A stretch of DNA of 64,000 nt, from NCBI RefSeq assembly GCF_020804225.1, contig NZ_WJBI01000002.1, forward strand, positions 1 through 64,000, given 5' to 3'. Origin of the DNA: Methanosarcina sp. DH2 (lineage in GTDB: Archaea; Halobacteriota; Methanosarcinia; Methanosarcinales; Methanosarcinaceae). Shown here piece after piece: positions 26,274 to 43,902 of the stretch (positions are counted from its first letter, which is position 1; each line of letters starts with the position of its first letter). The position numbers and the translations under genes were made by a program. A model generated the notes under the pieces. The model made no database searches and was not told the origin of the DNA. It saw nothing but the letters and a program-made list of their open reading frames with translations.

Positions 26274-26614
26274 GGTTTGAGCCTCTTTTAGTTGTATTGA
26301 ATAGTGTGGTTGTGAGTCTGGAAAGGATGTCAGCAGAATTTAAACGCCTATTCTGGAGATAAATGCTTATTCTATAATAGCAGGTGCCTATAGTTCGGAT
26401 GTAAAATTAGATATAGATACCTGTACTGGTTGTAGTTTTTTAGTTAAAAGAGAAATTAGCAACTATATAAATATTTAGATTCTGCTATTGACTGGTAACC
26501 ATGCGGACATTTATAATGTCTATTTAACATGCAATACATTATACAACTGGATAAGATTGCAAATCAGAGTTTCAAATAAGAAGTGAGAAATTAAAGATAC
26601 AGGATAAGGATATT
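26274..26614. other. Intergenic region upstream of serS
   Basis: No gene. CTATATAAATATTTAG at 26463-26478 is a good TATA element, usable by the decayed antitoxin gene at 26615 or, on the other strand, by serS with a long leader. Confidence 0.35.
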
Positions 26615-26926
26615 ATGAAAACCAAAGAAACACATATCGACGTTAACCACATCCGGCTTCTTATCCTGGAAAGAAAGGACGAAATTAAAGAAAAATTCAA
26701 AGCTGAGGTCGTTGAAACTTTTGGCTCATAAGCCCGAGGCGAGGAAAAGGAAGGAAGCGATATTGATGTCCTAGTGAGGTTTGAAGAAGGAGCAAGCCTT
26801 TTTGACTTTACAGCACTTGAGTTTTATCTTGAAGACCTGTTTGGAGTCTCTGTAGATGTTGTTTCGGAAAGAGGTATTAACCCAATAATTAAAGATGATA
26901 TATTAAAGGGAACTCCCGGGGTATGA
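26615..26926 (+). pseudogene. MntA-type nucleotidyltransferase antitoxin, decayed copy
   Basis: 103 codons homologous to the first half of the gene at 30198, about 90 percent identical by eye. An in-frame TAA (26729-26731) replaces the tyrosine of the GSYVRGE motif needed for nucleotidyl transfer, so the protein is destroyed at its active site. The reading frame otherwise runs to TGA at 26924, whose ATGA overlap starts the toxin gene. Confidence 0.85.
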
Positions 26927-27251
26927 AATCCCCTCTGCTTTACCTTTCTGAAATGCTCGGCGCTGCCAGAACTATAAAGGATTTCATACAAAGTATGGAA
27001 AAGAGACTTTTTGAAGGATAAAAAAACCAGGAGCGCAGTTGCCCATCAATTACTGGTGCTGGGAGAGGCATCAGAAGCCATTCCCCCCAGATATAAAGTT
27101 ACGAGCTCCAAACCTGGACTGAAGAGTTATGGCAGGTATGAGAGACCGCCTGACACATGCCTATTTTAATGTGGATTACGACCTTGTCCGGGATACTGCT
27201 AAAGAGCTCATCCCAAAACTCACTTTATTCTCACTCATTGAACGTTTTTAG
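26923..27251 (+). pseudogene. HepT-type HEPN toxin, decayed copy
   Basis: Starts ATG overlapping the antitoxin stop (ATGA), the normal MntA-HepT arrangement. Homology to the second half of the 30198 gene is spread over three frames by small indels after about codon 28. The HEPN ribonuclease motif R-x4-H-x-Y is still readable as RDRLTHAY near 27141. The end runs into a dispersed palindromic repeat at 27204. Confidence 0.8.
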
Positions 27252-27308
27252 AATTATTTTCACGGTCAGGAACTAGATTGATCATTCGAAATTCAAATAT
27301 AAGAAGAT
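27204..27308. repeat. Palindromic dispersed element (family P), copy 1, truncated
   Basis: Begins with the terminal GAGCTCATCCCAAAACTCA and has the internal AACTAGATTGATCATTCGAAAT, but lacks the right terminal inverted repeat. It abuts the downstream end of the next gene. Confidence 0.65.
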
Positions 27309-27309
27309 T

Positions 27310-27753
27310 TTAAGGAATAAGGCCTTTTTCGCGTAATACTCCCTGCTCATCACTCGTAATATAAGCAAAAATTTTCGGCTTTTCACCTATTATTTGAACA
27401 AAATAGATTACATCAAACTCAATCAGTTCTTCTCTTCCGTCTTTTCTGTTATAAAATGAATGCCAGTGTACTTTTGCCATTGAATGGTATTCGTCTAAAG
27501 AAGATACCTCAACTGAATCAATGCTCATGGACTTTGTCCCGATACTCCTGTAAAATTCATACCCTTGAGTAATCACAGTACGAAATTGCTCATCATTCTT
27601 ACCGCATAGAACCCCGAAGGGATTAGCCTCAATAAAACAGTCTGTAAATGAATTTGCAGTCTCTTCAACATCAATTTTCCCGACCAGTGACTTATTAAAT
27701 CGGGTCTCATGTTCTCTAAAAAAATCTTCCAGTTTCTTATCGATATTATCCAT
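27310..27753 (-). CDS. SnoaL/NTF2-like hypothetical protein
   Basis: 147 residues with the alternating helix-strand layout of the NTF2-like fold: an N-terminal helix (DNIDKKLEDFFREHETRFNKSL), a middle segment GVLCGKNDEQFRTVITQGYEFYRSIG, and strands ending VDVIYFVQ-like and PKIFAYITSDEQGVLREKGL. Such small proteins bind or modify diverse ligands; no specific role can be given. The ATG has no strong ribosome-binding site. It stands alone between two dispersed repeats. Confidence 0.65.
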   Translation of the reverse strand: MDNIDKKLEDFFREHETRFNKSLVGKIDVEETANSFTDCFIEANPFGVLCGKNDEQFRTVITQGYEFYRSIGTKSMSIDSVEVSSLDEYHSMAKVHWHSFYNRKDGREELIEFDVIYFVQIIGEKPKIFAYITSDEQGVLREKGLIP

Positions 27754-27822
27754 AATCCAGCTTCCTCTGAGATGCTTCTGACCTTCCGCATATGTCTGAC
27801 AAATTTTTCCTTTTTTATTAAC

Positions 27823-27953
27823 GAGCCTATCCCAAAAACAATTTTTATTCCTTTATTTAGAAAAGTTTCAGAAATACTTTCCTGATCAGAAACTCAATTG
27901 AATATTTCAAAATAGAGAATTAGAAAAGTAGATTTGAGTTTTAGGGTCAGCTC
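27823..27953. repeat. Palindromic dispersed element (family P), copy 2
   Basis: Ends GAGCCTATCCCAAAA and GAGTTTTAGGGTCAGCTC are inverted repeats about 131 bp apart, with the family core AATTGAATATTTCAAAAT between them. Confidence 0.7.
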
Positions 27954-27984
27954 ATGAATAAAGTCTGGATTGATCTTCAGTTAC

Positions 27985-28506
27985 TCAAGCAACAGACATT
28001 GATAGATGTACCTGATAGTAATCCTCCCCCACTTTAATTACATTCGACTCTTTTAAATGAAGAAACTCTTCTACCTGCTTCCATTCAGTGGAATCAATTC
28101 TAAAATCCTGTCCTGCAGTCTTGAGTGCTCTCTTCAAAGCCGGATACTCTACTATTTCACTTTCAGTGACAACAGCATATTTTTCGGGTACTGTTCCCAG
28201 TTTTTCGGCTCCGATCCAGTATTCGGCTGAGTTCATATGGTTATAAGCCCCAAGAACAAAAAAGCCTGCAGATATCAGAAAGAGGGCTCCAAAAGAGATA
28301 GCAAATCCCTTAAGGATAAAACTGGGCGAGAAATCCCTTATAACCAGCACTCCAGTCGCAAAAAGAGTCCAATAAATCAGAAGCATCAGATGAATCGATC
28401 TCGGAGCATGTATTCCTCTGAGTATATAACCACTCAGGTAAAATGTGGAAATCCCAATAAAAAAGAACATCGCGTATTTTTTAACTCTTTTATTCAGATT
28501 CTTCAT
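27985..28506 (-). CDS. Small membrane protein of unknown function
   Basis: About 173 residues from the ATG at 28506 (an in-frame start at 28560 is possible). Three hydrophobic helices: YAMFFFIGISTFYLSGYIL, IHLMLLIYWTLFATGVLVI and ILKGFAISFGALFLISAGFFVL. A soluble C-terminal domain of about 80 residues contains EYPALKRALKTAGQDFRIDS and the stretch VIKVGEDYYQVHL. I do not recognise the family. Confidence 0.6.
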   Translation of the reverse strand: MKNLNKRVKKYAMFFFIGISTFYLSGYILRGIHAPRSIHLMLLIYWTLFATGVLVIRDFSPSFILKGFAISFGALFLISAGFFVLGAYNHMNSAEYWIGAEKLGTVPEKYAVVTESEIVEYPALKRALKTAGQDFRIDSTEWKQVEEFLHLKESNVIKVGEDYYQVHLSMSVA

Positions 28507-28585
28507 AAAATTCCCAATAAGTAATAAATATGACAGTATTTGTTTCTTTCGAGAATACAAAGCCGAAATTTTTATAGAGAATGAA

Positions 28586-28645
28586 CAGGGTTAGGAGGCC
28601 AATATCAGGGTTAGGAGGCAAACATCAGGGTTAGGAGGCCAATAT
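28586..28645. repeat. 20-bp tandem repeat, three units
   Basis: CAGGGTTAGGAGGCCAATAT occurs three times head to tail (28586, 28606, 28626; middle unit with two changes). It directly adjoins a family P element. Each unit carries a TTAGGAGG that resembles a ribosome-binding site, but no frame follows. Confidence 0.85.
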
Positions 28646-28649
28646 TATA

Positions 28650-28771
28650 GAGCCCAACCCAAAACTCAAAGTTGCTTCTCTAAATTAAATAACTAATCAA
28701 GTTTCTAATTATGAAAAATAGCTCTGAGATTCGTATTGATTTTAGAATAAACCCAGTTTTGGGATGAGCTC
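28650..28771. repeat. Palindromic dispersed element (family P), copy 3
   Basis: GAGCCCAACCCAAAACTC at the left and AGTTTTGGGATGAGCTC at the right. The internal AACTAATCAAGTTTCTAAT is inverted relative to copies 1, 2, 5 and 6. The remaining stretch to 29000 is AT-rich without a gene. Confidence 0.75.
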
Positions 28772-29017
28772 GCTAAAAATAATGACTATAAATTTTACAG
28801 AAATTCCATTATACTGCAGTTCTAATCTGAAATTAACAAATTTAATATACTCCTTTGAATTTAATATACTGTATTCCTTCGTTTTTTTGGACAAAAATTA
28901 AGAGGCAGTTTTCAAATCCATATTTTATAAAATTTTTGATAAAAAATGTAGTTTAGAGGGTATAGAGAGCCAATCTTTTGGCTCTGTAGCTAAAACAATA
29001 ATTAAAGGAGGATTAAA

Positions 29018-29785
29018 ATGAAAAATCTATTTGATTTAACGGGTAAAGTTGCTATTGTAACAGGTGCTTCCTCAGGTCTTGGAGTAGATTTTGCCAGAGC
29101 TCTGGCAAATCAAGGTGCAAATATTGCTATAGTTGCACGTCGTGAGGAAAAATTAAAGGAAGTACAGAAGGAAATCGAAGAAATTGGCGTGACCTGCCGC
29201 TATTACGTATGTGACGTAATGAAAACAGAACAGATTAAGAGTGCTGTGGAGCAGGTAGAAAAAGACTTCGGCAGAATTGATATCCTTGTAAACAATGCCG
29301 GTCTTGGGCTTGTTGACAAGGCAGAACAAACAACTGATGAAATGTGGCGCAATATGATAGATACCAACCTGAATGGTGTTTATTTCTTTGCCCGCGAAGT
29401 CGGGAAAGTAATGTTAAAGCAAAAATACGGAAGAATCATTAACATTGGGTCAATTCACTCAACAGTATCAATGAAAGGAATGCCGGTTACAGCTTATTGC
29501 TCAACAAAGGGCGGAGTTTTAATGCTCACGAAGTCTCTGGCAACCGAATGGGCAAAAGAAGGCATTACTGTTAATGCAATCGGACCCGGTTATTTTGCTC
29601 TCGGAATGGCAGAAGGAGTTGTTGCTGATCCGGAATTTGTAAAAATTATCGAGTTTATGTGTCCTATGGGACGTGCAGGAAAGTCCGGAGATCTGGATAC
29701 AACAGTTGTTTACCTTGCATCCGAGGCATCAAGGTATATTACAGGCCAGATAATTACAGTTGACGGCGGCTGGACAGCACTTTAA
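29018..29785 (+). CDS. Short-chain dehydrogenase/reductase
   Basis: 255 residues, classical SDR. NAD(P)-binding TGASSGLG near residue 15, NNAG near 89, catalytic serine (GSIHS) and YCSTK near 155-159, and the C-terminal ITGQIITVDGGWTAL. Closest in pattern to gluconate 5-dehydrogenase and 3-oxoacyl-ACP-reductase-like enzymes; the substrate is unknown. AGGAGG lies 7 nt before the ATG. ARREEK after the second strand suggests NADP preference. Confidence 0.93.
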   Translation: MKNLFDLTGKVAIVTGASSGLGVDFARALANQGANIAIVARREEKLKEVQKEIEEIGVTCRYYVCDVMKTEQIKSAVEQVEKDFGRIDILVNNAGLGLVDKAEQTTDEMWRNMIDTNLNGVYFFAREVGKVMLKQKYGRIINIGSIHSTVSMKGMPVTAYCSTKGGVLMLTKSLATEWAKEGITVNAIGPGYFALGMAEGVVADPEFVKIIEFMCPMGRAGKSGDLDTTVVYLASEASRYITGQIITVDGGWTAL

Positions 29786-29922
29786 CCAGTCCTTCAACTC
29801 ATCCGCACGGAATAAAAGTTTAATTGATGAATGGTCGGGTTGGAAGAGTTAAGGAAATTTATTCAGAAACTGAAAAGTGAGCCTTTTTAAGCTCTTTTTC
29901 AAAGGAGCTGCGTTTCTTTTTT

Positions 29923-29950
29923 CAGGCTGCCTGAAGGCAGTTTATTCTTT
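29923..29950 (+). terminator. Hairpin plus T-rich tract after the SDR gene
   Basis: CTGCC-TGAA-GGCAG (29927-29940) followed by TTTATTCTTTTT. It lies 140 bp past the SDR stop and before the next promoter. The rest of 29786-30197 shows no gene. Confidence 0.5.
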
Positions 29951-30197
29951 TTGATTTTGATATAACACTCTGCCTAACCAGTTTTTTGTACATGTCCCTT
30001 TTACAACTCACCTTCTTGCCCTGTAATCTGGAATCTCTTTTTTCCCTATATTTTCTACTTTACGGACAGGCTCTAAGTCGGGACCAAGTTAGAACCAGAA
30101 AAGCAGAAAAAGCATATACACATGAAACATGATATCAGTATAGAGAAAAGTAGCCATTATAATTTCAGCAGTGAAAGAAATACAGGAGGCGGATACT

Positions 30198-30863
30198 ATG
30201 GAAAATAAAGAAACACATATCGACGTTAACCAGATCCGGCTTCTTATCCTTGAAAGGAAGGATGAAATTAAAGAAAAATTCAAAGCTGAAGTCGTTGAAA
30301 TTTTTGGCTCATACGTCCGAGGCGAGGAAAAGGAAGGAAGCGATATTGATGTCCTGGTGAGGTTTGAAGAAGGAGCAAGCCTTTTTGACTTTACAGCGCT
30401 TGAGTTTTATCTTGAAGACCTGTTTGGAGTTCCGGTAGATGTTGTTTCGGAAAGAGGTCTTAACCCGATAATTAAAGATGATATATTAAAAGGAACTGCC
30501 GGGGGTATAAAATCTCCTCTGCTTTACCTGTGCGAGATGCTCAAAGCTGCCAGAAATATAAAAAAATTCACAGAAGGGATGGACAAAGACACTTTTCTGG
30601 ACAATAATAAAACAAAGGATGCAGTCGTACTCCAGTTTGAGATCATAGGTGAAGCCGCAAAATCCGTTTCTGATGACATAAAGTCTCTGTCTCCTGAAAT
30701 TGATTGGGAAGATATAATAGACATACGAGACCACCTGATATGTACTTATTTTGATATAGATTATGACCGCGTTTGGAATACCGCAATAAAAGACATCCCC
30801 GTGCTTGAGCAAACAATTGAGAAATTGCTTGATGAGCTGAATTCCAGCAACCAGGGATTATAA
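30198..30863 (+). CDS. MntA-HepT antitoxin-toxin fusion protein
   Basis: 221 residues from the ATG at 30198 (GGAGG 8 nt upstream). Residues 1-104 form a minimal nucleotidyltransferase with GSYVRGEEKEGSDIDVLV, the MntA-type antitoxin that AMPylates its toxin. Residues about 107-221 form a HEPN domain of the HepT class. In the canonical pair these are separate overlapping genes, as in the decayed copy at 26615-27251. Here one extra G in a G-run and loss of the ATG (now ATA) join the frames. The toxin motif R-x4-H-x-Y reads RDHLICTY, so the catalytic histidine is cysteine. The fusion is therefore likely non-toxic, perhaps an immunity protein or scaffold. Confidence 0.85.
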   Translation: MENKETHIDVNQIRLLILERKDEIKEKFKAEVVEIFGSYVRGEEKEGSDIDVLVRFEEGASLFDFTALEFYLEDLFGVPVDVVSERGLNPIIKDDILKGTAGGIKSPLLYLCEMLKAARNIKKFTEGMDKDTFLDNNKTKDAVVLQFEIIGEAAKSVSDDIKSLSPEIDWEDIIDIRDHLICTYFDIDYDRVWNTAIKDIPVLEQTIEKLLDELNSSNQGL

Positions 30864-30893
30864 CGCAAAGAATAGAAATCAGAGGGGAGTGAA

Positions 30894-31148
30894 ATGAAGC
30901 CTGACAGGTGTACATTCTGCAGGGGAAAAATCTCAGAAGGCGAGACCGAGCTCGTTGTAAAAATCGGAGAGCAGATTATCGCTATTAAAGATGTTTCCGC
31001 CTATGTCTGTGAAAACTGCGGGGAAGCATATTATACTCCAGAGGTTTCAAGAAAAATCGATATAGTCATGAAAAAGTTTCATGAGTCAAAACTGCTTCTT
31101 CATCCCGTGGCTGCCGGAGAATTGAGTTTTGACGAGATTGTTGCTTGA
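30894..31148 (+). CDS. YgiT/MqsA-type zinc-finger protein
   Basis: 84 residues. Two CxxC pairs (CTFC near residue 6; CENC near 43) form the YgiT-type zinc finger, followed by EAYYTPEVSRKID as in MqsA-like antitoxins. Usually paired with a small toxin upstream (MqsR or DUF4258); here the upstream gene, 30 bp away, is the MntA-HepT fusion instead. It lacks a full C-terminal Xre domain. It could be an orphan antitoxin. Confidence 0.85.
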   Translation: MKPDRCTFCRGKISEGETELVVKIGEQIIAIKDVSAYVCENCGEAYYTPEVSRKIDIVMKKFHESKLLLHPVAAGELSFDEIVA

Positions 31149-31231
31149 TATCATATTACTTTTTTATTCTTGACACTATCCAAACAATTGATCGAAAGCA
31201 AAGTAAAAAAGAAAAAGCGATTTTTTCTTAA

Positions 31232-31558
31232 TCATTTGCCCGGTGGTTTGTATTCCAGCTTCGATGCTTTCTTCATGGCCTCGATGCCTTCATCGACCGA
31301 CAGCAACGGTGTAGTCTTAAACACCCTTATAGCACCTCCAGCTGAGACAGCCATTGATAGGGCTACTGCGCTCTCATCATCAGGTAATGTTGCGATTTCC
31401 ACCACATCATAATCGCCAAGTGCGAACCAATAACCTTTAAGTTTTCCCCCAACGTTTTCAATTAAAGAACGGGCTACTTCTTCACGGTTTTGAGGATTTG
31501 CTACTAATGTAGCTACTGCTTCAGGCGCAAATGATATTTGAATCAGGTAATCTTGCAT
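31232..31558 (-). CDS. GYD-domain protein
   Basis: 108 residues. The family motif GDYD (FALGDYDVVEIATLPDDESA) and the end TTPLLSVDEGIEAMKKA are typical of GYD-domain proteins, a ferredoxin-like family of unknown function. I start at the ATG at 31558, which has GGAGGGG 6 nt upstream; an in-frame TTG at 31573 is less likely. Confidence 0.85.
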   Translation of the reverse strand: MQDYLIQISFAPEAVATLVANPQNREEVARSLIENVGGKLKGYWFALGDYDVVEIATLPDDESAVALSMAVSAGGAIRVFKTTPLLSVDEGIEAMKKASKLEYKPPGK

Positions 31559-31774
31559 TAATTCCCCTCCCAATTACTTAGGTTAATATTTCAAGTGATA
31601 AAATATATACATATCTATTAAAGGTTTTAAATAAATTTGAGATTAAGTTTGGAACAAATGCCCTGCTAAAGAAGGAAATATCTGGATTTTTATAAATAAG
31701 ACTGTATGTTCTGATGCAGTAGAATTCCTGTTAGATTTGATAAGGACACAAAAAAAATCAGTTCTGGAATCAGT

Positions 31775-32581
31775 TCACTTAATAATATGTTCTTGACCAT
31801 CAATTGTTATTTTCCATCCGGGGTCTAAAAATTCAGATTTCACATCAGCATAGTGTAACTTCCTGTGACACAAGGGACAAACAACTAATAAATTCCAGCT
31901 TTGAAGGGTTTCCGGTGCCTTTTGATTTAATTCTATCATATGGTGAACTTCTGCATATTTCTCACCGTTCTTTTTCAAAAATCCTGGATATCCACATATC
32001 ATACATTTGTAGCCGTATTTTTCTTTAATTGCATTAGATAATAAGGAAGGTCTTTGTATCAATTCAATGATAGTTTCTTTAAACTCTGGAGTATTTCTGT
32101 ATTTAAGGTCTAATTTTTTTATCAATTCATCATAATCGAGGGTTTTTCCTTCTCTAAACTCTTCTGATATAGCAGTTTTGCCAGATACATAAGTATTTAC
32201 AGCCTCAGATATCCAATTCAATACTCTATCCTCATCTTCAGGTTCTATTACAGCAAAAGTTTGAACTGCATCATAGTTTTTGGAAGTAATTTTTACTTCA
32301 TTTATATCAAAAGGCTCTACAGGCCTTACATTTTCTCCACTAATTATATATCGCCAGTGCTTTCCCCAGATTTTATCGCTTAAATTATCTACGTCTTCCT
32401 CGCAGGATACAAAATTCATTATCCAACGGATTGATTTCTGCCCAGGTGGAAGTGTACTTTTAGTTTGAGCTATCAAGATTATATCGCCCGGCTTGACATT
32501 ATGGGGTTTTCCATCTGTAGCATGTTTCGCGTTATTAAGAACACCTTCCATAGTTTTAGCTGAGTTTTTAAAAAGTAGCAT
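31775..32581 (-). CDS. EVE-like/HNH endonuclease
   Basis: 268 residues. Residues about 15-125 look like an EVE/PUA-type domain (VKPGDIILIAQTK, IRWIMNFVS, HWRYIISGENVRPVEPF), a fold that reads modified bases in some restriction enzymes. Residues about 185-250 are an HNH nuclease: CMICGYPG, EVHHMIELNQK, NLLVVCPLCHRKLHY, with paired cysteines for structural zinc and the H-H-N-H catalytic pattern. A modification-dependent restriction enzyme is the likely role. It shares strand and neighbourhood with a MazG-like gene and a helicase. The EVE assignment is moderate; the HNH is clear. Confidence 0.82.
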   Translation of the reverse strand: MLLFKNSAKTMEGVLNNAKHATDGKPHNVKPGDIILIAQTKSTLPPGQKSIRWIMNFVSCEEDVDNLSDKIWGKHWRYIISGENVRPVEPFDINEVKITSKNYDAVQTFAVIEPEDEDRVLNWISEAVNTYVSGKTAISEEFREGKTLDYDELIKKLDLKYRNTPEFKETIIELIQRPSLLSNAIKEKYGYKCMICGYPGFLKKNGEKYAEVHHMIELNQKAPETLQSWNLLVVCPLCHRKLHYADVKSEFLDPGWKITIDGQEHIIK

Positions 32582-32882
32582 GTAATACAGGAAAACTTAT
32601 TAAAGTAATAAATTTTTTGGTTTTGTAAAAGAGTTCCTAAAAAACAAAATCTTGGACATATTCTAAAAGAGTAAGTAAAAAAGATGAGTTGTATGGTAAA
32701 AGCCATAATACTTTACACAATCTCACAAACTGATGTGATAGAAAGTTTTGGAATGAGAAAGACCTTAACCGTTTTAGTAAAAACATTTCCGGCAGCTAGG
32801 TCTAAAAACCTTCGCTTCTGAAATAGAGTTCAATTACTTCTTTCAACAAAAAAGTGTTCAATCAAAAACCTCCCCACAAACT
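32582..32882. other. Intergenic spacer
   Basis: AT-rich with no gene or strong repeat. It separates the EVE-HNH gene from the MazG-like gene on the same strand, and may hold a promoter for the former. Confidence 0.3.
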
Positions 32883-33221
32883 TCACTCCTCCCCTTTATC
32901 AAAAACCCCAATAAGTAAAATCCTACTAGCAAATCCTCCTCTCTCTTCCCTCTTCCTCTCCTGTACATTCACAACATCCTCAAACCCCCTAATCCCGGAA
33001 AGTGTATCAATGACCTCCTTTACATCAGCCAGTTCCTCAACGCAAGGGTTCTCAGTAAATTCCAGGACTTCCTCCTGAAGCTTTTTAATGAGGTATCTCA
33101 GGTATTCCCCATCGTCATCGAGGATTTTGTATTCAGGAATCCGGGTTGAGGATTTTATGATTTCGGGGATTTTGTCTCGAACCAGTTTGTCGTAGGATGT
33201 GAGGTTGGTTTTTTCGGGCAT
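32883..33221 (-). CDS. MazG-like/phosphoribosyl-ATP pyrophosphohydrolase-type protein
   Basis: 112 residues. YDKLVRDKIPEIIK at the start and KLQEEVLEFTEN plus EELADVKEVIDTL are the all-alpha NTP pyrophosphohydrolase signature: EExxE followed by ExxD, which bind magnesium. Enzymes of this class hydrolyse nucleoside triphosphates to monophosphates. It lies 101 bp downstream of a helicase on the same strand. Decayed fragments of the same gene occur at 36140 and 42660. Confidence 0.85.
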   Translation of the reverse strand: MPEKTNLTSYDKLVRDKIPEIIKSSTRIPEYKILDDDGEYLRYLIKKLQEEVLEFTENPCVEELADVKEVIDTLSGIRGFEDVVNVQERKREERGGFASRILLIGVFDKGEE

Positions 33222-33322
33222 TCTGAAACCTTCGATTTGTAGTTTTTAATTTGCTTAGCTATCAACTATTTGATGTAGTTCTTATGTTGTTATATTTGTT
33301 TTACGTTTGTTATCAGCGGTTT

Positions 33323-36067
33323 TTAAAGGAATTTTGCTTTTACTTCTTCCAGGTTGGGGACTCCATCGAGGTTTTCATAATAGTTTTCAAGGTCTTCTAT
33401 CATTTTATTCCGGATCTGCTGGAGGTCGGAGTCGTTATTTATTTTTTGCCACAGGTAGAAAGAAAAAGCTATATGGTTCAGGTCTTTGCAATGGTACATG
33501 AAACGTTTTCTCTCGAACTTTTCAAAGGGATTTGAGAGTATGCTGGCTTTGATTGTGTTTTCATCCCTGATCACATCGGGACTGTTGAGAGGGCAGTTCG
33601 GCCGGTCAACGAGGAGGCCTTTTTCGTGCCTTTCCAGGTAAAAACTTGAGTAGAGGCTGACAAGGTTCTCAAGGCTGCATTCTCCGGTGTGGTCCGTGCA
33701 TTTAAGGAAAGAGAGCATGAAAATAATTTTGTATGAAAAGGAGTAGTCCCCATTTTCCAGGAACTCGAAGAAGTCCTCATACAGGGTTGTTTCATCGTGT
33801 TTCTTGAGCCCCTTTTTCTCCCTGAGCTCCCCGGTTTTTTCCGGCTTGAAATACAGGAGAGATTTCCGGCCAAAGGGAATTTCTACATCGGGGTTTACGT
33901 CCCCTTTTCTTATCCAGTCCTTCAGGGTGCCGGTTGAAATGAAAAGTTCTCTTGCGAGCTGTTCCATATTTATATAATCGGGGTATTCTCGCTCAAAGGT
34001 GAAGATGTTGATTTTTTCTATCGACCTTTCTTCCTCGTAAAGCCCTGCAAGGACCAGTTCTTCAGGGTCAAGCTCGTATCTTGCTTTCGGGTCCTTCAGG
34101 ACATTTGCCCAGGGGACGTACCTGTCGATCCCGAAAATGCCGTGGCAGCTCCAGGGCATGTTGAACGGGCCATAGTTGTCAACAACATCGATTACGTAAA
34201 GGGCTTCTTTTCCAGGAAATCTCCTTGTCCCCCTGCCTAGCTGCTGGAGGTAGAGGGCTTTTGACATCGTGGGCCTTGCCATTACAATAATCGAAGTCTT
34301 CGGGGAGTCCCAGCCTTCCGTAATCAGAGAACAGGTGCAGAGGAACTGGATTTTTTCGTCTTCGTATTCCCGGATATAGTCCATTGACCTTCTGTCTTTT
34401 CCGCTTACTGCCTTTGCACTGATCCCCTGTTCCCTCATCCTCCTGGCAAGCGATTCGGCATGTGCAACCGAGACACAGAAAATCAGTCCTGATTTGAAGG
34501 GGAGTTTCTCCTGGCTCTCAAAACCAACCCCATTTTCAGCTCTTTCCCGGGCTGCGAAATATTTTTTGAGCACATCAACGATCAGCTGGTCCCTTGAGGG
34601 TACGATAAGGTTCTTCTGGAGGTCAGAGGCGACGTAGTCTTTCCCGTTATACCTGATCTCGCTGAGATCAAGGTTACTTTTTACCCGAAAAGCCTTTATG
34701 GGAGCCAATATTCCTTTTTCAATAGCCTCTTTTAGGGTAAGGTTGGTTTCATATTCCCCAAAGATTTCTTCAAGCTTTTTCTTATCAAGCCTGTCGGGAG
34801 TTGCGGTCAGGCCGAGAAGAGTGTCGGGGTTAAAATACTGAATTACTTTTTTAATTCCGGGGGCAACGGAATGATGGGCTTCGTCAACTGCAATATACTG
34901 GAAGTGGCCCTGCCTGAGATTCTGATACCTCCTTGACATTCCGGCATATGTCTGGACCATTATTTTACAGTCTTCGGAGTCCCCTATGCTAATCGAGTAG
35001 GTCTCTTTTTCCTCGGTTACTAAAACCTGCTCAGCTGTATTCGCAGTCAAAAAAGGAGATGGAATAGCCCGATTCTGTTTATTCCATACTCTGTACCCCT
35101 CAAAAAAATTATCCATCGTTTGCTCCTTCAATTTCCTTGAAGGAACAAGCACAAGTGCCCTTATGGACACATCCTTCTCGTATTCCCTAAAAAAATCCGA
35201 TATAAGTATATGCGTTTTCCCGGTCCCGGTCGGGAGGTGCACAAGAAACGCCTTTTTCCCGTCCTTCCTTTCCCTTTCGATTGCTTCAAGCACATCTTCC
35301 TGGTGATCAAAAAGCTCAAACCCTCTTTTTGCAAGGACATGGTGGCAGTCGATTATCTTTTCAGGCTCAGGGAAATACCTTTTGATCTCCTCGCAAAAAA
35401 CATCCCGAAACTGCATGGACCCAAGGGACCACCTGTAAACCCTTCCGCCCTGCGAGACTATGGAGTTCTGCTTCAAAAGCTGGTCCTTATATCTCTCTTT
35501 TCCGATGATTAGCGGGTGGTGGAACCTTTCCCCGTTCTTCTCGATCCCGATAAATCCGCCTTCGGTATGGACAACATAATCGATCCACCTTGTCCTCCCG
35601 TTTACGTCGAAAATGGGGTATTCCCTGCTTATCCGGGAGAGGATATCCCGCCCAAAAACCTCACAAAAGGCGTCCTCAAAATAAGATTCAGGAACAGTAG
35701 GGTCCATGCACTGGTGCTCACGATCCATTCCTTTTAAAACAGGAGCCGCATCATCACAGAACTCACCAGAGACCAGAAGGGGGAGCATTTCTTTCATTTC
35801 AAGAAAATCAAGCTCGTTGTCAACAACAAATCTGAAAACCCTGCCGCAGGAAAAAACGATCTCATTTTGCTCCTTTGTGTATTCGCTGTAGCTGAAGGGG
35901 TGCTCCCGGTTGCAGATGCTGCGATCCACTATCACGGCGATTTCCATTTCAGGAGTTGAGTAAAGAAATCCTCTGAGAAGGGACTTTGTTCTGGTGAGGG
36001 AGAAGGTTGAAAGGAAACTATCTATCCGACTGGTCAGACTGTTGTTTTTGCAGGGTAATTCGGGCAT
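33323..36067 (-). CDS. SF2 helicase with N-terminal nuclease-like domain
   Basis: 914 residues. Residues about 128-215 (YFEDAFCEVFG, WIDYVV, GIEKNGERFHH, QLLKQNSIVSQGG, VYRWS) resemble a restriction-type PD-(D/E)XK or DUF559-like nuclease, with D163 and E176 as candidate acids. The helicase core follows: LPTGTGKT near 278-285, DEAH at 395-398, LTATPDR near 420, TEGWDSP and QQLGRGTRR. Near residue 690 MEQLARELFISTGTLKDWI looks like a helix-turn-helix of the MerR/excisionase type. The layout recalls defence-linked and type III restriction helicases, but I cannot place it in a named system. The nuclease call is by eye. Confidence 0.85.
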   Translation of the reverse strand: MPELPCKNNSLTSRIDSFLSTFSLTRTKSLLRGFLYSTPEMEIAVIVDRSICNREHPFSYSEYTKEQNEIVFSCGRVFRFVVDNELDFLEMKEMLPLLVSGEFCDDAAPVLKGMDREHQCMDPTVPESYFEDAFCEVFGRDILSRISREYPIFDVNGRTRWIDYVVHTEGGFIGIEKNGERFHHPLIIGKERYKDQLLKQNSIVSQGGRVYRWSLGSMQFRDVFCEEIKRYFPEPEKIIDCHHVLAKRGFELFDHQEDVLEAIERERKDGKKAFLVHLPTGTGKTHILISDFFREYEKDVSIRALVLVPSRKLKEQTMDNFFEGYRVWNKQNRAIPSPFLTANTAEQVLVTEEKETYSISIGDSEDCKIMVQTYAGMSRRYQNLRQGHFQYIAVDEAHHSVAPGIKKVIQYFNPDTLLGLTATPDRLDKKKLEEIFGEYETNLTLKEAIEKGILAPIKAFRVKSNLDLSEIRYNGKDYVASDLQKNLIVPSRDQLIVDVLKKYFAARERAENGVGFESQEKLPFKSGLIFCVSVAHAESLARRMREQGISAKAVSGKDRRSMDYIREYEDEKIQFLCTCSLITEGWDSPKTSIIVMARPTMSKALYLQQLGRGTRRFPGKEALYVIDVVDNYGPFNMPWSCHGIFGIDRYVPWANVLKDPKARYELDPEELVLAGLYEEERSIEKINIFTFEREYPDYINMEQLARELFISTGTLKDWIRKGDVNPDVEIPFGRKSLLYFKPEKTGELREKKGLKKHDETTLYEDFFEFLENGDYSFSYKIIFMLSFLKCTDHTGECSLENLVSLYSSFYLERHEKGLLVDRPNCPLNSPDVIRDENTIKASILSNPFEKFERKRFMYHCKDLNHIAFSFYLWQKINNDSDLQQIRNKMIEDLENYYENLDGVPNLEEVKAKFL

Positions 36068-36139
36068 GCTCTTTCTTGTAATGGTATTGTAGTTTAAAAA
36101 CTTTTATAAGTAAACTTGAAGCATTACAATATTTCATTC

Positions 36140-36420
36140 CGTGATCCCGGAAAGCGCATCAATAACCTCCTTTACATCAGCCAGTTCCTCAACAGAGATT
36201 TTCAGTAAATTCAAGAACCTCCCCCTGAAACTTTTCAATAAGGTATCTCAAGCATTCCCGGCCATCATCAAAAATTTTGCATTCAGGGGTCCGGTTTGAG
36301 AATTTCAAGATCTAGAGATTTTGTTGCGGACGGTTTGGTGCGGGATCAAAAACTAATAAACGGTTGATGAGGAGAGGGGAGCAGTATGCGCGGGAAATAT
36401 ATTTTTACAGAAAACAATAT
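36140..36420 (-). pseudogene. Decayed partial copy of the MazG-like gene
   Basis: About 210 bp (36140-36350) align with 32985-33200, covering the EVLEF and ELADV segments, with small deletions and a stop that break the frame. The downstream sequence GAGAGGGGAGCAGT at about 36370 recurs at 41450 and 42780. The rest to 36601 has no gene. Confidence 0.75.
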
Positions 36421-36601
36421 GTTGTCTCTTTTGACAAAAAAAGGGCTCTGTAGAATCCTGTCTAAACTTGTTTCCACTAGATTCATTTAACCTAGAAACT
36501 TGACGCTAAGCCCATTTCAAAATATTTGGCATATCATAAATGGAGGATTTCTACATAGCCTATTTTATTAACTTTTTTTAATAACTTGTTTGCAATTCTC
36601 T

Positions 36602-37084
36602 TCATGAGTTTAAAATCCAAAGATTGTAATTAAGCAGCATTGCGAAACTTACCCACAAGATATAAGGAAGTAATAGGTAAGAAGCTGTTTTTGAGATCTT
36701 TCTAAACTGAATTATTGTTAGTAAGATAGCAAACCAGAGCAGAATTATCTCAATAAAAGCATAGTATGGAGACCTTAGACCAAAGAACAGATAGGACCAG
36801 ATGATGTTAAGACCTAATTGTATACCAAAAATGAGTAATCCAATTTTCACTTCTCTTTGCTGTACTCCTTTCTCCCAGACAATATAAAGAGAAATTCCCA
36901 TAAGCGTATAGAGCAGAATCCAGACAGGAGAAAAGACCCATGGTGGAGGGCTGAAAAACGGCTTCTCAAGTAAAGGAAACCAGTTTTCAACTGAGGAGGC
37001 TGTAAATACCGCGCCAATTGCTCCTGCAAGCTGGCAAAGCAATATCGAGGCCACAAGTTTAAAGAAGTTTATCTTCTGAGACAT
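36602..37084 (-). CDS. tspO: TspO/MBR family membrane protein
   Basis: About 160 residues, five transmembrane helices. Family hallmarks: FSPPPWVFSPVWILLYTLMGIS, LNIIWSYLFFG, the aromatic-rich loops, and PYILWVSFAMLLNYNLWILN at the end. TspO proteins bind tetrapyrroles and respond to stress or light in bacteria; in methanogens the role is unknown. An in-frame GTG at 37093 is the alternative start. Confidence 0.92.
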   Translation of the reverse strand: MSQKINFFKLVASILLCQLAGAIGAVFTASSVENWFPLLEKPFFSPPPWVFSPVWILLYTLMGISLYIVWEKGVQQREVKIGLLIFGIQLGLNIIWSYLFFGLRSPYYAFIEIILLWFAILLTIIQFRKISKTASYLLLPYILWVSFAMLLNYNLWILNS

Positions 37085-37180
37085 GTAAGACACAGGAATA
37101 TTTAGTACTTCACTATATTAACTTTGAGGTCAAAAAGAAGCTTAATTTTTCGGTTTCGAGAATTTATAGCTATTATGTAA

Positions 37181-38337
37181 ATTTCAGGTAAAAGGAATAA
37201 AATTCGGCTTTGTAAAAATATTCATGAAGGACCGGATAATGGAGTTTATGTCCGGCTCGGTTCCAGCAACCGAAAAGCCGATAGCGATCTTATCCAGGAG
37301 CTTCGCCGAAGTGCGATGGGTCTTGCGTTCGATGAACAAGCACTCCCGGACAGAACAGTGGAAGACCTCGATTTTGAAGCCGCAGTAACCTGTTTTGAAC
37401 GTCACCGGAAACTTTTAGAAAAAGACCTCGAATCCCTGCGTCTTGTTACCAGACATCAGGGGCACCTGGTTCCTACAGTGGGCGGCATGTTGCTGTTCGG
37501 CAGAAATCGGGAGATGATCTTTCCCGATGCATGGATCCAATGCGGGAGGTTCATCGGGACCAATAAGGTCGATATTTTTGATCATATCGAGATCCACGAA
37601 CACCTGCCGGTAGCAGTTGAAAGAGCAATGGAGTTCCTCAAAAAGCACGCCATGCGCGGAGCGGATTTTTCAGAACTTAGACGTAAAGATGTCTGGAGCA
37701 TCCCTCTAACGATACTCCGCGAGGCGGTAATCAATGCTGTTGTCCATGCTGACTACTCTCAGAAAGGTGCTCCCATTAGGATCGCTTTTTTTGACGACCG
37801 AATCGAAATAGAGAATCCTGGGATCCTGCTTCCGGGGCTAACTGTAGAAGACATGCTCCAGGGTGTATCCAAATTAAGGAACCGAGTTATAGCTCGCGTT
37901 TTTTGGGAACTTGATCTCATTGAGCAATGGGGCAGCGGAGTTCCTCGTATGTTTAAAGAAGCTGAAACCCTGAATATACCTGAACCGGAGGTTATCGAGA
38001 TAGGGATGCGGGTAAGATTAATTATCCACCTTACCGAAAAAATTAAGACTAAAGTCCCAAAAACAGCTATCGAACAAGTAACCGAACAAGTAGCCGACAA
38101 GTGCACAGATTGATCTTCTGCCTTCGACAGGGATCTTTGGGGGGTCGTGAAGCTATGCAATGCCTGGGTTTGAATCATCGCCCCACATTTGTTTATGATT
38201 ATCTACAACCAGCCATCCAGGCAGGTTTTGTTGAGATGACACAACCCGATTCGCCTAGAAGTCCTACTCAAAAATACCGCCTGACGGCTAAAGGGAAGGA
38301 ATTTCTGGACAAAGAAGTCAGCGGAGACACAAAGTAA
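37181..38337 (+). pseudogene. AlbA_2/HATPase-type regulator, 5'-truncated and frameshifted
   Basis: Homologous to the Schlafen-AlbA_2 plus GHKL-type ATPase regulators often annotated as RecG-like or ATP-binding proteins. The AlbA_2 domain is missing. The open frame starts at 37181 with no start codon, already inside VYVRLGSSNRKADSD (from 37244). The ATPase region shows LREAVINAVVHADYSQKG, FFDDRIEIENPG and IEQWGSGVPRM. At about 38098 one base is missing (GACAAGTGCACAG). The C-terminal winged helix (HRLIFCLRQGSLGGREAM to KYRLTAKGKEFLDKE) continues in the +1 frame to 38337. Confidence 0.85.
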
Positions 38338-38407
38338 AATAGTGTTTCTTTTATTTTTTCAGTCGGATAAAATAATATATAATGTAATAGAGCAAAGAGG
38401 AGGCCGG

Positions 38408-38779
38408 ATGAGGCAAGAATCTCTGGTAACTAAGTACGATTACGATTTCGAAAATGACAGCATTTTCTTTTACGGAAGCAACAAGAAGTACAGGTCTTCA
38501 ATAGATCTGGATGGAATAATCCTTGATATTAGTGAAGATAACCAGATAATGGCTATTGAGATCCTTGATGCTTCAAATAGGTTTAACCTTGCAAAAGAAG
38601 ATCTACGCAATATCAAATACTTTGAAGCTCGCATCGAAGTTAGCGAAGAAAATATCAGGCTGACAATGAAAATGAGTGTAAATAAGAGAAATAAACTGGT
38701 TGACAAAGGTCTTGATGCTCTCGGGCTGAACAGCATGAACCTCCCAATAAGCACGCAAGGGATAGCGCTTAACTGCTAA
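38408..38779 (+). CDS. DUF2283-like protein, intact copy
   Basis: 123 residues from the ATG at 38408, which has GAGGAGG upstream. DYDFENDSIFFYGSNKKYRSSIDLDGIILDI followed by IMAIEILDASNRF is the DUF2283 pattern (small beta proteins, often beside toxins). Function unknown; an antitoxin-like role is possible. It follows the decayed AlbA_2 regulator. A second copy broken by a mobile element lies at 44612, in a direct repeat of the surrounding 400 bp. Confidence 0.8.
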   Translation: MRQESLVTKYDYDFENDSIFFYGSNKKYRSSIDLDGIILDISEDNQIMAIEILDASNRFNLAKEDLRNIKYFEARIEVSEENIRLTMKMSVNKRNKLVDKGLDALGLNSMNLPISTQGIALNC

Positions 38780-38806
38780 TTTATTTTTCAGGAATCTGAA
38801 GGCAAT

Positions 38807-38920
38807 TTAGCTAACTGAAACCTCCAATGTAGTGATTTCTCCCAGCACACAAGCCTGTTCTCCTGTTACTTCAAGGACAAACTGGATAGCTTCCTTAATG
38901 TTTTCAAGTGCCTCGAAATT
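38807..38920 (-). pseudogene. HicB-like antitoxin, C-terminal fragment
   Basis: Minus-strand frame NFEALENIKEAIQFVLEVTG continuing to GEITTLEVSVS and a stop at 38807. The FEALENIKEAI segment is typical of HicB-type antitoxins. The 5' part is cut off at about 38910, exactly where the plus-strand regulator fragment begins, so this is a rearrangement junction. Confidence 0.6.
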
Positions 38921-39318
38921 GAGGAACAAAGGGATAGCAGAAGTCTTCTTTGATACCAAAATAATTGAGCAGTGGGGAAGTGGTATCGAAAAGATGCGGA
39001 TTTACTGCAAAAAAGCAAATGTTCCCGAGCCTGTTTTTGAAGAGTACCAGGGTTTCCGCATAATATTCAGGAAAGGGATTTTTAACGAAGAATATCTTCT
39101 GGGGACTCGGGTTGAACGACAGGCAGATCAAAGCTGCGTTTTATGTAAAGGAGAAGGGAAGGATTACAAATAAAGATTATCAGCAAATAAATGAAGTGAA
39201 AGAACGGCTTGCAACAATGGAGCTCAAAGAACCTGTAGAGAAAGGAATCTTTGAGAAGGTAGGAAGCAGAGGAAGGGGAACTCACTACATTATAAATCCT
39301 GCGTTCATGCTGAAATAA
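38907..39318 (+). pseudogene. AlbA_2/HATPase-type regulator, C-terminal fragment
   Basis: Reads SASKLRNKGIAEVFFDTKII, then IEQWGSGIEKMRIYCKKANV, then shifts frame near 39105 into LNDRQIKAAFYVKEKGRITN and KGIFEKVGSRGRGTHYI. These are the last part of the ATPase domain and the winged helix. The missing first part lies on the minus strand at 44988-45934 and ends precisely where this begins. Confidence 0.8.
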
Positions 39319-39460
39319 TTCCGCATTAATACCGCATTCACGGCATCAGATTTGAAAAAGTAAATTGAGCAATGTTTTTTATATAACGAACTGATAGTAA
39401 TCAATTAAGATAGCTACTTATATTCTACAACTCTATTTTGTAAATACGGAGGAAACAATT

Positions 39461-39604
39461 GTGGCAAAGCCAATTGAACTGGGTCTTGTCTTAGAAGGTG
39501 AGGACGCCAGGGAATTCTGGGAAAACGAGAAGAAGCCTGCAACCAAACAACAAGTAGAAATGTTTAGGCGGGCAAGGAAACTTGCAAGTACAGTCAGGTT
39601 GTAA
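39461..39604 (+). CDS. Small protein upstream of GNAT gene, antitoxin candidate
   Basis: 47 residues from GTG with GGAGG upstream: MAKPIELGLVLEGEDAREFW, then KQQVEMFRRARKLASTVRL. Short, charged and followed after 2 bp by a GNAT gene, the layout of antitoxin-acetyltransferase pairs. TTTTTATATAACG near 39377 is a good TATA box. It is not one of the classical DUF1778 antitoxins; its role is inferred from context. Confidence 0.65.
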   Translation: MAKPIELGLVLEGEDAREFWENEKKPATKQQVEMFRRARKLASTVRL

Positions 39605-39606
39605 GC

Positions 39607-40161
39607 TTGCCGCATAAAATACCGGATCTGGAACTTGTTACTTATTCGCTTTCCAAGAGAAGCGATGTTTCATCTTTTTGCTGTGAAAACACCGATCTTA
39701 ACGATTTTTTAAAAAACGATGCCCTGATAAACCAAGAACAGCTGATCAACAAGACCTATGTCTGTTACTATCAGGAACAATTGGTAGGGTATTTCACTTT
39801 AACTACTGATACCATTCAGGTTAAATCAATCGATAACTCAGATTGTGTAGACGGGTTCCCATATTCAAAATACCCAGCCCTGAAACTTGCAAGATTAGCC
39901 ACACACGAAAGTTTTGCAGGCCGGGGAGTGGGGTCATAAATGCTGCACATTGCAATATATTTGACTCAAAAAGTATCGAATATCGCCGGATGCAGATACG
40001 TCACAGTCGACTCAAAACCAGAATCGGTGGGTTTTTACATAAAGCATGGTTTCAAACTTGTTAGAGGGTCAAGCAAGAAGGAGTACCCTGTGCTCTATTT
40101 GAACATGCAGCCAATTGCAGAAGAGCTTGAGCCAATCGAATCTCTGGATCCATTTGTGTAA
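39607..40161 (+). pseudogene. GNAT acetyltransferase (toxin-like) interrupted by a stop codon
   Basis: Starts TTG 2 bp after the small upstream gene. LELVTYSLSKRSDVSSFCCE and DLNDFLKNDALI are typical of toxin-type GNATs. LARLATHESFAGRGVGS reaches the acetyl-CoA loop. One in-frame TAA (39937-39939) then interrupts; the same frame continues with MLHIAIYLTQKVSNIAG, SVGFYIKHGFKLV and LYLNMQ. A single base change would restore 184 residues. An ATG directly follows the stop, so a split product is conceivable but unlikely to be active. Confidence 0.8.
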
Positions 40162-40329
40162 CTGCTTTTCTATTACAGTTCAACTTTCCTTTATAAGTAG
40201 TTGTTCGGACACTCTTTTTTGCTATCTCAATATTATTAGCCATTATTGGACTACCTTTTTGGTAATTCAATAAAATTCGCAAGTATACCAAATGGTAAAG
40301 TTCTACAATTTTGGAACAATCAAATTTAA

Positions 40330-40459
40330 GAGCTGATCCCAAAACTCAGAATTAAGTCCCTAAATCTCGAATTTGGAATAATCAATCGATCTTCTGATTA
40401 GGAAAATGATCCTGAAATTCTTGTTTATATGAAAATAAAATCGATTTTGGGATGAGCTC
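40330..40459. repeat. Palindromic dispersed element (family P), copy 4
   Basis: 130 bp with ends GAGCTGATCCCAAAACTCAG and GATTTTGGGATGAGCTC. The internal AATAATCAATCGATC is the reverse complement of the core in copies 1 and 5, so it is inverted. 40460-40824 has no convincing gene; GGCGGGATAATTGTCTTACTCCGCC (40666-40690) can form a short hairpin. Confidence 0.75.
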
Positions 40460-40824
40460 ATTTACTATTTGTGAACCATTTTCGAGGATTTTTCTAAAAT
40501 CAATGCAGTTACGAAAAGTCAGTGTTAATCCAGGAAATAAACTTGTCGTTATCATTGAAATAAAATTTAACTAGTTTAGAGTTAATTCAACAAAGTATAC
40601 CCATAGCATGAGTCACAATTGTATCTGAGGCAGAAATCCTTTCAACCTGTCCTCTCAAGCCTGGGCGGGATAATTGTCTTACTCCGCCTTTAATCTCTTT
40701 CGTTCTAAAACTGCTTCATCTATTGAAATCCGAGAATTGAAATGTATCGAGTTCTTAACAACTCTTTACTCCTGCCCGAAGCTCAAAAAGCTTTTAATAT
40801 CGGTGAGAATATCGAGATGATAAT

Positions 40825-41118
40825 ATGATAATGGAGAAAACAGCAAGAGAAATGTACGCGAAGAACCGCGAAAAAATCATGCAAAAAGCAAGGGGTTCCA
40901 ATAGCGGATTTTTTGGAGTGGGATTCTATAATAATTTCAGCGTTTTACTTTCGGCAAAGAGTACCAATCCTGGAGTTCAATGGGATAATAATCCTGAGTT
41001 TCACTTCCAGGTACCCTGTAAGAGGTTGCTAAATTATCGTTATCTTGATGAGCTATTTACCGAATCATTGGATAACTATCTTCTTACCGGTAAAAAATTT
41101 TTCGTGAAAGATAAGTGA
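40825..41118 (+). CDS. Hypothetical protein
   Basis: 97 residues, or 95 from a second ATG at 40831. Contains EMYAKNREKIMQKARGSNSG, FFGVGFYNNFSVLLSAKSTN and a C-terminal LLTGKKFFVKDK. No signal peptide or membrane segment. I do not recognise a family, and the ribosome-binding site is weak. It lies between two family P repeats. Confidence 0.45.
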   Translation: MIMEKTAREMYAKNREKIMQKARGSNSGFFGVGFYNNFSVLLSAKSTNPGVQWDNNPEFHFQVPCKRLLNYRYLDELFTESLDNYLLTGKKFFVKDK

Positions 41119-41215
41119 CAAACTAAATTGTCATTTCAAAGGTTAATTTCTACTTTGCCTTTTTCCTTTTCCGTCGCATGATGGAGCGAATCAATACGTG
41201 AGGATTAATGTCATA

Positions 41216-41343
41216 AGATTCATCCCAAAACCAGTTCTATTCTCAAATCATTAAATCTTTAGAATTGTTCTGGGATATAAAACTCGATTGATTATTCGGA
41301 ATACTGGATTCAGATAAGCAACTTTGAGTTTTGGGATGGGCTC
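41216..41343. repeat. Palindromic dispersed element (family P), copy 5
   Basis: Ends GATTCATCCCAAAACCAG and GAGTTTTGGGATGGGCTC, with the core CTCGATTGATTATTCGGAAT. Further on, about 41445-41500 contains GAGAGAGGGGAGCAGTAAGC, shared with the flanks of the MazG-like fragments. Confidence 0.75.
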
Positions 41344-41568
41344 TAAAAATATTATTGTTCAATGAACGTCTACAAAAAATATAATTTTACAGTAATTTTT
41401 GATATTTAATATACTTTGCCTCTGATGATTTTAGCATTGTAAACAAACGGCAGGTGGGAGAGAGGGGAGCAGTAAGCGCCGAAAATAGATAAAAACAGAT
41501 CTGGGAAAACCCATTATCAGCTATCTTAACTTCCAGCCTTTGCCCTGAAAAATCAACCAATAACATCT

Positions 41569-41868
41569 TTATATCTTTTCTTTTTCCTTATTCAGCGCAT
41601 CAATTTTTGCCTGTATCTCATCCTTCTGCTGTTTGTACCTTATTTTGATTTCTTTAACCTCTTTGTAAATAAGCATGCTTTCGTCACAGATTCCTGTCAT
41701 CGCCTCTATATGTATTATGAGTTCATCTACCCCTTCGTCCAGTCGCGGTTCTACTTTCCGCCATTCTGCACACTTAATATCCAGTTCTTCTTTGCTTTTG
41801 TCCTCAAGGTCAAAGATCTCATCCCAGAGGTCCATAATCTCGCTGTCTATCTCTTCTTTTGTAGGCAT
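41569..41868 (-). CDS. Coiled-coil hypothetical protein
   Basis: 99 residues, almost all charged helix with heptad-like spacing: KEEIDSEIMDLWDEIFDLED, then KEVKEIKIRYKQQKDEIQAK and IDALNKEKEKI. I start at the ATG at 41868, preceded by GGGGAG at good spacing; the frame is open to 41970 and could start there. No family recognised. It is followed about 280 bp upstream by another minus-strand gene, so a shared operon is possible. Confidence 0.55.
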   Translation of the reverse strand: MPTKEEIDSEIMDLWDEIFDLEDKSKEELDIKCAEWRKVEPRLDEGVDELIIHIEAMTGICDESMLIYKEVKEIKIRYKQQKDEIQAKIDALNKEKEKI

Positions 41869-42145
41869 TATTTTTCTCCCCAATTCGTTAAATCTTTGTA
41901 TAAGGGCACCCCTATTAATCCCTTTCAGTAGCTTTTTTCTATAAGCCATCAGGCCGGCCTTTTCAAACACTTTTACGGAATCAATAGTACTTTTTTGCTT
42001 AAAAGATAAATTTGTCGTGGGAAGAATCTCAGAGGCTGTCTTAAAATTACAGTTTTCGAATATTAGCTACATTGTCAGTTCAGAATTTCTGTTCCGAGCT
42101 TAATTGCGTGCCTGTATGCTACTATCCGGATCTGGTTAATAAGAT

Positions 42146-42541: not shown

Positions 42542-42654
42542 AATCTTCTGCCTCCTTGAGGTTTCTTAAATTCAAACCATCTACAATTGGATAATGAGGA
42601 ATGTTAACTCTAATGGTTAAGTTACTATCCTGATTATGTGACCAGATTTATTTT

Positions 42655-42830: not shown

Positions 42831-42895
42831 TCTGGCGGAATCGCTGTCAACCATTGAGAACCTGGCAGGGAAAATATAATAATAAATAATACAGT

Positions 42896-43873: not shown

Positions 43874-43902
43874 TTGGATAAGATAAATTAATAAGGATAT
43901 AA

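Follow-up and report, generated by a model that had tools for sequence, protein, structure and literature searches.

The 64,000-nucleotide stretch analysed here (positions 1 to 64,000 of contig NZ_WJBI01000002.1 of Methanosarcina sp. DH2; hereafter the window) encodes a 914-residue nuclease-helicase that in our opinion probably serves in defence against viruses or plasmids as a DNA-degrading effector; a methyltransferase would belong to its bacterial module, and the MazG-like and HNH genes next to it in the window would be mere residents of a genomic hotspot. We infer the defence role from the location, the mobility and the domains of the helicase. The genome of the window (G000; G and L numbers are the genome and locus labels of our analysis) is a 4.6 Mb member of the Methanosarcinaceae and is Methanosarcina-like going by its relatives. 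The initial annotation had grouped helicase, MazG-like gene and HNH gene as one possible undescribed defence set. The open reading frames (ORFs) bear out three genes on the same (minus) strand at the positions given (Table 1), with gaps of 101 bp from the helicase to the MazG-like gene and 301 bp from there to the HNH gene, and a nameless nuclease-helicase of defence type did emerge, as judged from its rarity and patchiness, its exchangeable defence slot, and the defence or mobile surroundings of its bacterial relatives. For the set of three genes itself there is no support: a MazG-like or HNH gene adjoins the helicase in none of eight bacterial loci, each of which has an S-adenosylmethionine (SAM) methyltransferase, and homologues of the full trio are rarely adjacent elsewhere, a finding that the annotation had itself named as speaking against the set.

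The core of the protein is a superfamily 2 (SF2) motor that matches the Pfam models ResIII (2.6e-32) and Helicase_C. The nearest solved structures are 7clg, presumably SauUSI, together with an HsdR and RadD; each of them matches the motor only. The best PADLOC profile is mREase_IV (SauUSI-type; 1.7e-35), aligned over positions 325-567 of 945 only. Compared with the NCBIfam equivalog cut-offs, the helicase reaches 102.7 vs 550 bits for EcoAI and 72.6 vs 720 bits for RadD (motor only), and the scores for the remaining type I/III restriction subunits are lower than that for EcoAI. Since it falls far short of all NCBIfam equivalog cut-offs, the protein does not count as any recognised housekeeping helicase, and membership of a known housekeeping repair family, which would have told against the initial annotation, was not found.

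Residues 1-245 have no match in any sequence library. Structure models were built from seven sequences of the family, leaving out the one from the phage collection, and predict two PD-(D/E)XK-like folds in this N-terminal part. With VIA-align, unit 2 matches many PD-(D/E)XK folds, among them the FASTKD4 RAP module (Z 8.1), Bax1 (6.8), ngo0050 (6.7), Can2, TnsA, AbaSI and VRR_NUC; for unit 1 the matches are Hjc resolvases, with Z of about 5, and one alignment covers both units together. A 26-column match between the two units (probability 16%) is suggestive only of an internal duplication. In Pfam, the N-terminus of the relative in locus L095 gives a match to the restriction-endonuclease family MTES_1575 (7e-4), short of the curated cut-off. 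Invariant in unit 2 among the aligned relatives are E131, D163, E176, N178, H183, H184, and Q196. Behind the motor lies a MerR-like helix-turn-helix (HTH), whose fold matches (RacA/BmrR) reach a Foldseek probability of up to 0.99, yet with E values of about 0.3 or worse. The last ~150 residues of the protein are mostly helical and strongly conserved, the motif NPFEKFERKRF being identical in all aligned members; apart from the HTH, neither sequence nor structure searches gave a convincing fold match or a solved relative for this C-terminal region. The architecture proposed in the initial annotation is largely recovered: its nuclease-like N-terminus appears as PD-(D/E)XK-like in the fold model and in the Pfam match of L095, residues 120-220, which it suggested modelling for such a core, overlap predicted unit 2 (residues 121-237), and its helix-turn-helix after the core is of the MerR type by a Pfam match below cut-off and by fold.

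The family is rare and patchy, occurs in both archaea and bacteria, and was infrequent in every sample taken. Of the 238 genomes searched in the class, only two carry the helicase: that of the window and one other Methanosarcinaceae genome, of another genus, with a 76%-identical full-length relative (L008/L037/L089). Bacterial relatives at about 49-56% identity were found in Nitrincola and in metagenome-assembled genomes (MAGs) of a Saccharospirillaceae, a Sulfurospirillaceae and a deltaproteobacterial member, and additional ones in further Campylobacteria. A divergent relative (37% identity) lies on a human-gut contig. In the searches of viruses and plasmids, the pair of methyltransferase and helicase was seen on MT836124, a phage-labelled contig from human gut, although this label may be wrong, some of its other genes resembling bacterial transporter genes. 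A search with the C-terminal domain found no family member among 72,556 plasmid records, and scans of the IMG/VR viruses returned only relatives of the helicase core, or nothing. The family has no named entry in Pfam, NCBIfam or PADLOC 2.0.0 and was not found in the open-access literature; apparently it is undescribed, though it could bear a name in other sources.

A constant feature of the bacterial loci is a class I SAM methyltransferase of roughly 200 aa, which adjoins the helicase in all eight (one locus being rearranged), far above the few percent that we would expect by chance. Its distance upstream of the helicase is 1-2 bp in L038, L095 and L121 and a few bp in L097; in L042 it lies upstream and overlaps the helicase gene. 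L039 and L040 have it in divergent orientation, and in L041 a truncated version is fused to the helicase C-terminus. By Pfam and NCBIfam the companion falls near TehB and other small-molecule SAM methyltransferases (TehB/UbiE-type scores), yet under every equivalog cut-off, and its alignment has neither a DPPY-type motif nor a visible target-recognition domain; for lack of these two features it probably is not the base-methylating partner of a restriction-modification (R-M) system. The methyltransferases form two groups with 22-29% identity across them, against 54-58% for the helicases of the two proteobacterial groups, and this disparity suggests from sequence comparison that the partner was swapped while the pairing with the helicase stayed. 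No methyltransferase gene or remnant near the archaeal helicases emerged when the window and the loci L037 and L089 were searched by profile, and the SAM methyltransferases of the archaeal genome are all generic, the best scoring 44 bits.

The bacterial pairs keep company with defence or mobile genes: a SoFic-like gene in L038, and a HEC-05/PDC-M55C-like DUF262 gene in L042. Next to the Nitrincola pair (L039) stands an SMC-like operon with products of 986, 462 and 183 aa, preceded by one more gene (L039 1-5926); its layout is JetABCD/MksBEF-like, and PADLOC gives it only a weak JetC match (E 3e-6). In genome G951 the pair (L122, G951:C1:106000-124000) sits on an apparent mobilisable integrative element with a relaxase, a tyrosine integrase and a DUF6088 gene, which also carries two nearly identical HipA-type toxin modules. 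Such an element would be a vehicle for the transfer of the helicase family.

Of immediate interest for the archaeal loci is the MazG-like gene. Its product carries an ExxE...ExxD metal-site motif (EVLEFTENPCVEELAD) and has a similar, cupin-fused paralogue of 240 aa in the same genome (L044, G000:C36:116456-116758), proteins of comparable length to which occur across Methanosarcina and which looks like the housekeeping form. Motif and paralogue speak for the name given by the initial annotation; no model in Pfam, NCBIfam or PADLOC gave a match, those of MazG or PRA-PH included. Judging from its sequence, the protein may work like a MazG-type pyrophosphohydrolase. In both archaeal helicase loci, from two genera, the gene lies directly downstream of the helicase on the same strand, at distances of 101 and 106 bp. 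A second, broken MazG-like copy, overlooked in the initial annotation, lies on the other side of the window helicase; the second archaeal helicase likewise has a broken copy on its other side. The broken copy of the window has stops and frameshifts, forms direct repeats with the intact one (91% over 55 nt and 77% over 124 nt), and is conserved as a relic in other Methanosarcina. In a tree of the copies it clusters with those other relics, and the copies on either side of the second archaeal helicase cluster together (support modest in both cases); because of these groupings the copies do not sort by helicase.

Short-form MazG-like copies, intact or broken, recur across the class, often several within a few kb, and 14 loci with such copies were read. 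The window region 26300-46100, bounded by a SerRS2/topoisomerase flank and a PIN/LigD-phosphoesterase flank, is a hotspot that is also seen in loci L079, L080, L086, L087, L088, L091 and L092. The right-hand flank of the window (46127 onward) is common to seven other Methanosarcina loci (G172, G159, G163, G153, G154, G178, G166), and the cargo beside the MazG-like copies varies: PtuA/PtuB Septu (G172), type III R-M (G159), type I R plus DUF262 (G153), BPTD_3080 R-M (G178), a HerA-type locus (G154), and BREX PglZ/BrxA (G166). G163 has the HNH gene (89.6% DNA identity) and a broken MazG-like copy with the outer flank, and neither helicase nor intact MazG-like gene between them; it is either the original empty site or a deletion. 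In G180 the region is shared in part only, within the stretch read, and holds Dam-type methyltransferase, HerA-like and SMC-like genes. In another genus, intact MazG-like copies lie beside BPTD_3080 R-M (G082) and, in G083, beside type I R-M accompanied by a UvrD-like helicase, the gene order of G085 being equal to that of G083 as far as the end of the G085 contig. Probably, therefore, the MazG-like gene marks the hotspot and does not encode a subunit of the helicase. No description of this MazG-marked Methanosarcina hotspot was found in the open-access literature. Further accessory genes of the island encode fused nucleotidyltransferase-HepT, MqsA-like zinc, Mrr-N-domain and DUF2283 proteins (window 30171-31148, 42896-43873 and 44728-44991).

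The HNH gene appears to lead a life of its own. Its C-terminal half is recognised as HNH by PF01844 (31.4 bits vs a cut-off of 21.4; 2.1e-7) and matches the HNH of EcoKMcrA at 3.5e-7, whereas the EVE half proposed by the initial annotation found no support: residues 1-165 have no sequence match in Pfam or the PDB, EVE/PUA-like readers included. The gene occurs in 7 of 112 genomes of the family and is accompanied by the helicase in the window only. It stands without the helicase in G155, G163, G179 and G084, and is broken in G156 and G169, with weak extra matches in G089 and G153; in G156 (L105) a DDE transposase gene splits it. Its third-position guanine-plus-cytosine (GC) content is 27% vs 55% for the helicase. 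Probably it is an independent resident of the island and not a partner of the helicase.

Table 1. Genes and predicted domains of the nuclease-helicase locus in the window.
Feature	Window positions	Strand	Basis
HNH endonuclease gene, McrA type, 268 aa	31775-32581	minus	ORF; PF01844
MazG-like gene, 112 aa	32883-33221	minus	ORF; ExxE...ExxD motif; copies adjoin many defence systems
Nuclease-helicase, 914 aa	33323-36067	minus	ORF; ResIII and Helicase_C; full-length relatives at 37-76% identity
N-terminal unit 1, residues 8-101, may be inactive; fold predicted as PD-(D/E)XK-like	35765-36046	minus	AlphaFold2; Hjc-type matches
N-terminal unit 2, residues 121-237, predicted PD-(D/E)XK nuclease	35357-35707	minus	AlphaFold2; VIA matches; conservation; MTES_1575 in L095
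SF2 motor, ResIII/RadD/HsdR type, residues 250-630	34178-35320	minus	Pfam, NCBIfam, PADLOC and PDB matches
MerR-like helix-turn-helix after the core, residues 701-756	33800-33967	minus	MerR_1 below cut-off; fold matches
Conserved helical C-terminal region with NPFEKFERKRF	33326-33799	minus	Alignment; model
Broken second MazG-like copy, upstream side of helicase	about 36134-36337	minus	Direct repeats; stops and frameshifts

As a mechanism we propose that the ResIII-type motor would translocate on foreign DNA or on intermediates of its replication, that the MerR-like HTH and the C-terminal domain would engage DNA and position the helicase, and that cleavage would fall to the second of the N-terminal PD-(D/E)XK units, whose catalysis is deduced from the modelled fold. 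The TehB-like methyltransferase of the bacterial module would most likely serve self-protection or control, a role that we infer, and would have something other than a DNA base as its target. The archaeal branch may have lost the methyltransferase or never had one, its helicase working alone or with an unlinked partner, and the Methanosarcina helicase would fill a slot in a chromosomal hotspot with MazG-like copies, intact or broken, at its edge and with a defence cargo that varies by species. A wider version of this proposal is conceivable, and we offer it tentatively: an unnamed module of bacteria and methanogenic archaea in which a tandem-nuclease helicase is directed against foreign DNA, a non-DNA-type methyltransferase controls or safeguards it in bacteria and can be swapped for a distant relative, and the slot in the Methanosarcinaceae is refilled with different defence systems between MazG-like copies, whole or broken, that serve as homology for the exchange of cargo.

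Several points weigh against a DNA-degrading defence effector. No family member has a known activity, and the methyltransferase link counts just about four independent lineages. The nuclease call comes from a model that gives only moderate single matches (Z ~8 at best), those by Foldseek alone being weak (best E 0.05), and the third catalytic position of unit 2 is N instead of K (ExN for ExK), so that nuclease activity of this unit cannot be assumed. Furthermore, the orientation and spacing of helicase and MazG-like gene are kept in two genera, as a partnership would also predict. Such a partnership, suggested in the initial annotation as the true unit, would be a two-gene archaeal defence system in which the helicase-nuclease attacks DNA and the MazG-like protein depletes or cleans nucleotides during infection. 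The conserved arrangement at the two archaeal loci agrees with it, as does the appearance of MazG domains among those predicted for defence by DefensePredictor (PMC13092281). We nevertheless hold it to be rather unlikely, and the hotspot explains the arrangement better: intact MazG-like genes also lie, in varied orientations, beside Septu, BPTD_3080 R-M and type I R-M, many copies are broken next to apparently intact cargo, both archaeal helicases have a broken copy on their other side too, and the gene is beside no bacterial member.

The helicase could also be an enzyme of DNA repair or recombination, with a RadD-, XPB- or Hef-like role, that came to lie in an accessory region by chance. Its motor is indeed like those of RadD and XPB, and unit 2 is like Bax1, the nuclease partner of XPB; but its presence in so few genomes of the class (2/238), its mobile or defence contexts in bacteria, and scores far under the repair-family equivalog cut-offs make this a distinctly unlikely explanation. 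Improbable, too, is an R-M component for which the small methyltransferase marks the host DNA. Nuclease, ResIII-type motor and methyltransferase together do present an R-M-like layout, but the methyltransferase is of the wrong kind (no DPPY-type motif or visible target-recognition domain; TehB/UbiE-type scores), and the archaeal helicases, with no methyltransferase nearby, would need an unlinked replacement enzyme for base marking. That all three genes of the window form a single defence system we regard as highly improbable: their close spacing on one strand is offset by the absence of the set from every other genome examined, by an HNH gene that mostly occurs without the helicase, by its deviating third-position GC (27% vs 55%), and by the 301 bp that separate it from the MazG-like gene.

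The preferred reading as a defence effector also calls for a comparison with the known helicase-nuclease systems. SauUSI-type type IV enzymes (mREase_IV, 7clg) provide the closest solved motor and the best PADLOC profile, yet the match is confined to the motor and does not run along the whole protein; SauUSI has an N-terminal PLD-type nuclease and a different C-terminal part. RadD and XPB-Bax1 belong to the same broad motor group, and unit 2 resembles the Bax1 nuclease fold, but they are housekeeping or repair proteins without the domain order of the window helicase, which misses the RadD equivalog widely. Type I/III restriction subunits differ in that no match reaches equivalog level and no Mod/HsdM-type methyltransferase lies beside the archaeal helicases. 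Gabija and Hachiman (HamAB) share the logic of a nuclease with a helicase, the two being separate proteins in Gabija. They are also separate in Hachiman (PMC12278908). The YprA-family systems (ARMADA, DISARM, Druantia) likewise bring together a helicase, a Vsr-type nuclease and methyltransferase partners, but no YprA partner gene set was present at the loci read, and ARMADA is set apart by its description, with a C-terminal Vsr domain, PglX-type methyltransferases and further helicases (PMC12458937). Hna resembles the window helicase in combining an SF2 helicase and a PD-(D/E)XK nuclease in one protein and in its defence setting; it is a DinG/XPD-like helicase with a C-terminal nuclease (PMC13381803), whereas the window helicase has N-terminal nuclease units, a ResIII-type motor, and added HTH and C-terminal domains. 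Membership of Hna was rejected on this architecture, the motor not being DinG/XPD-like and the C-terminus consisting of the HTH and helices and not of a nuclease.

Elsewhere in the window, positions 8280-13592 encode a protein of 1770 aa that consists nearly entirely of TPR repeats.

Setting aside the misleading grouping of three genes is of practical consequence, as otherwise all three would be cloned and tested together. What takes its place is a new and testable candidate in the class of helicase-nuclease defence, distinguished by an unusual tandem of nuclease-like units at its N-terminus and by a constant, as yet unexplained methyltransferase companion. The Methanosarcina hotspot, in turn, is useful for finding defence genes of archaea, a poorly charted field, since the comparison of genomes at this site gives system after system.

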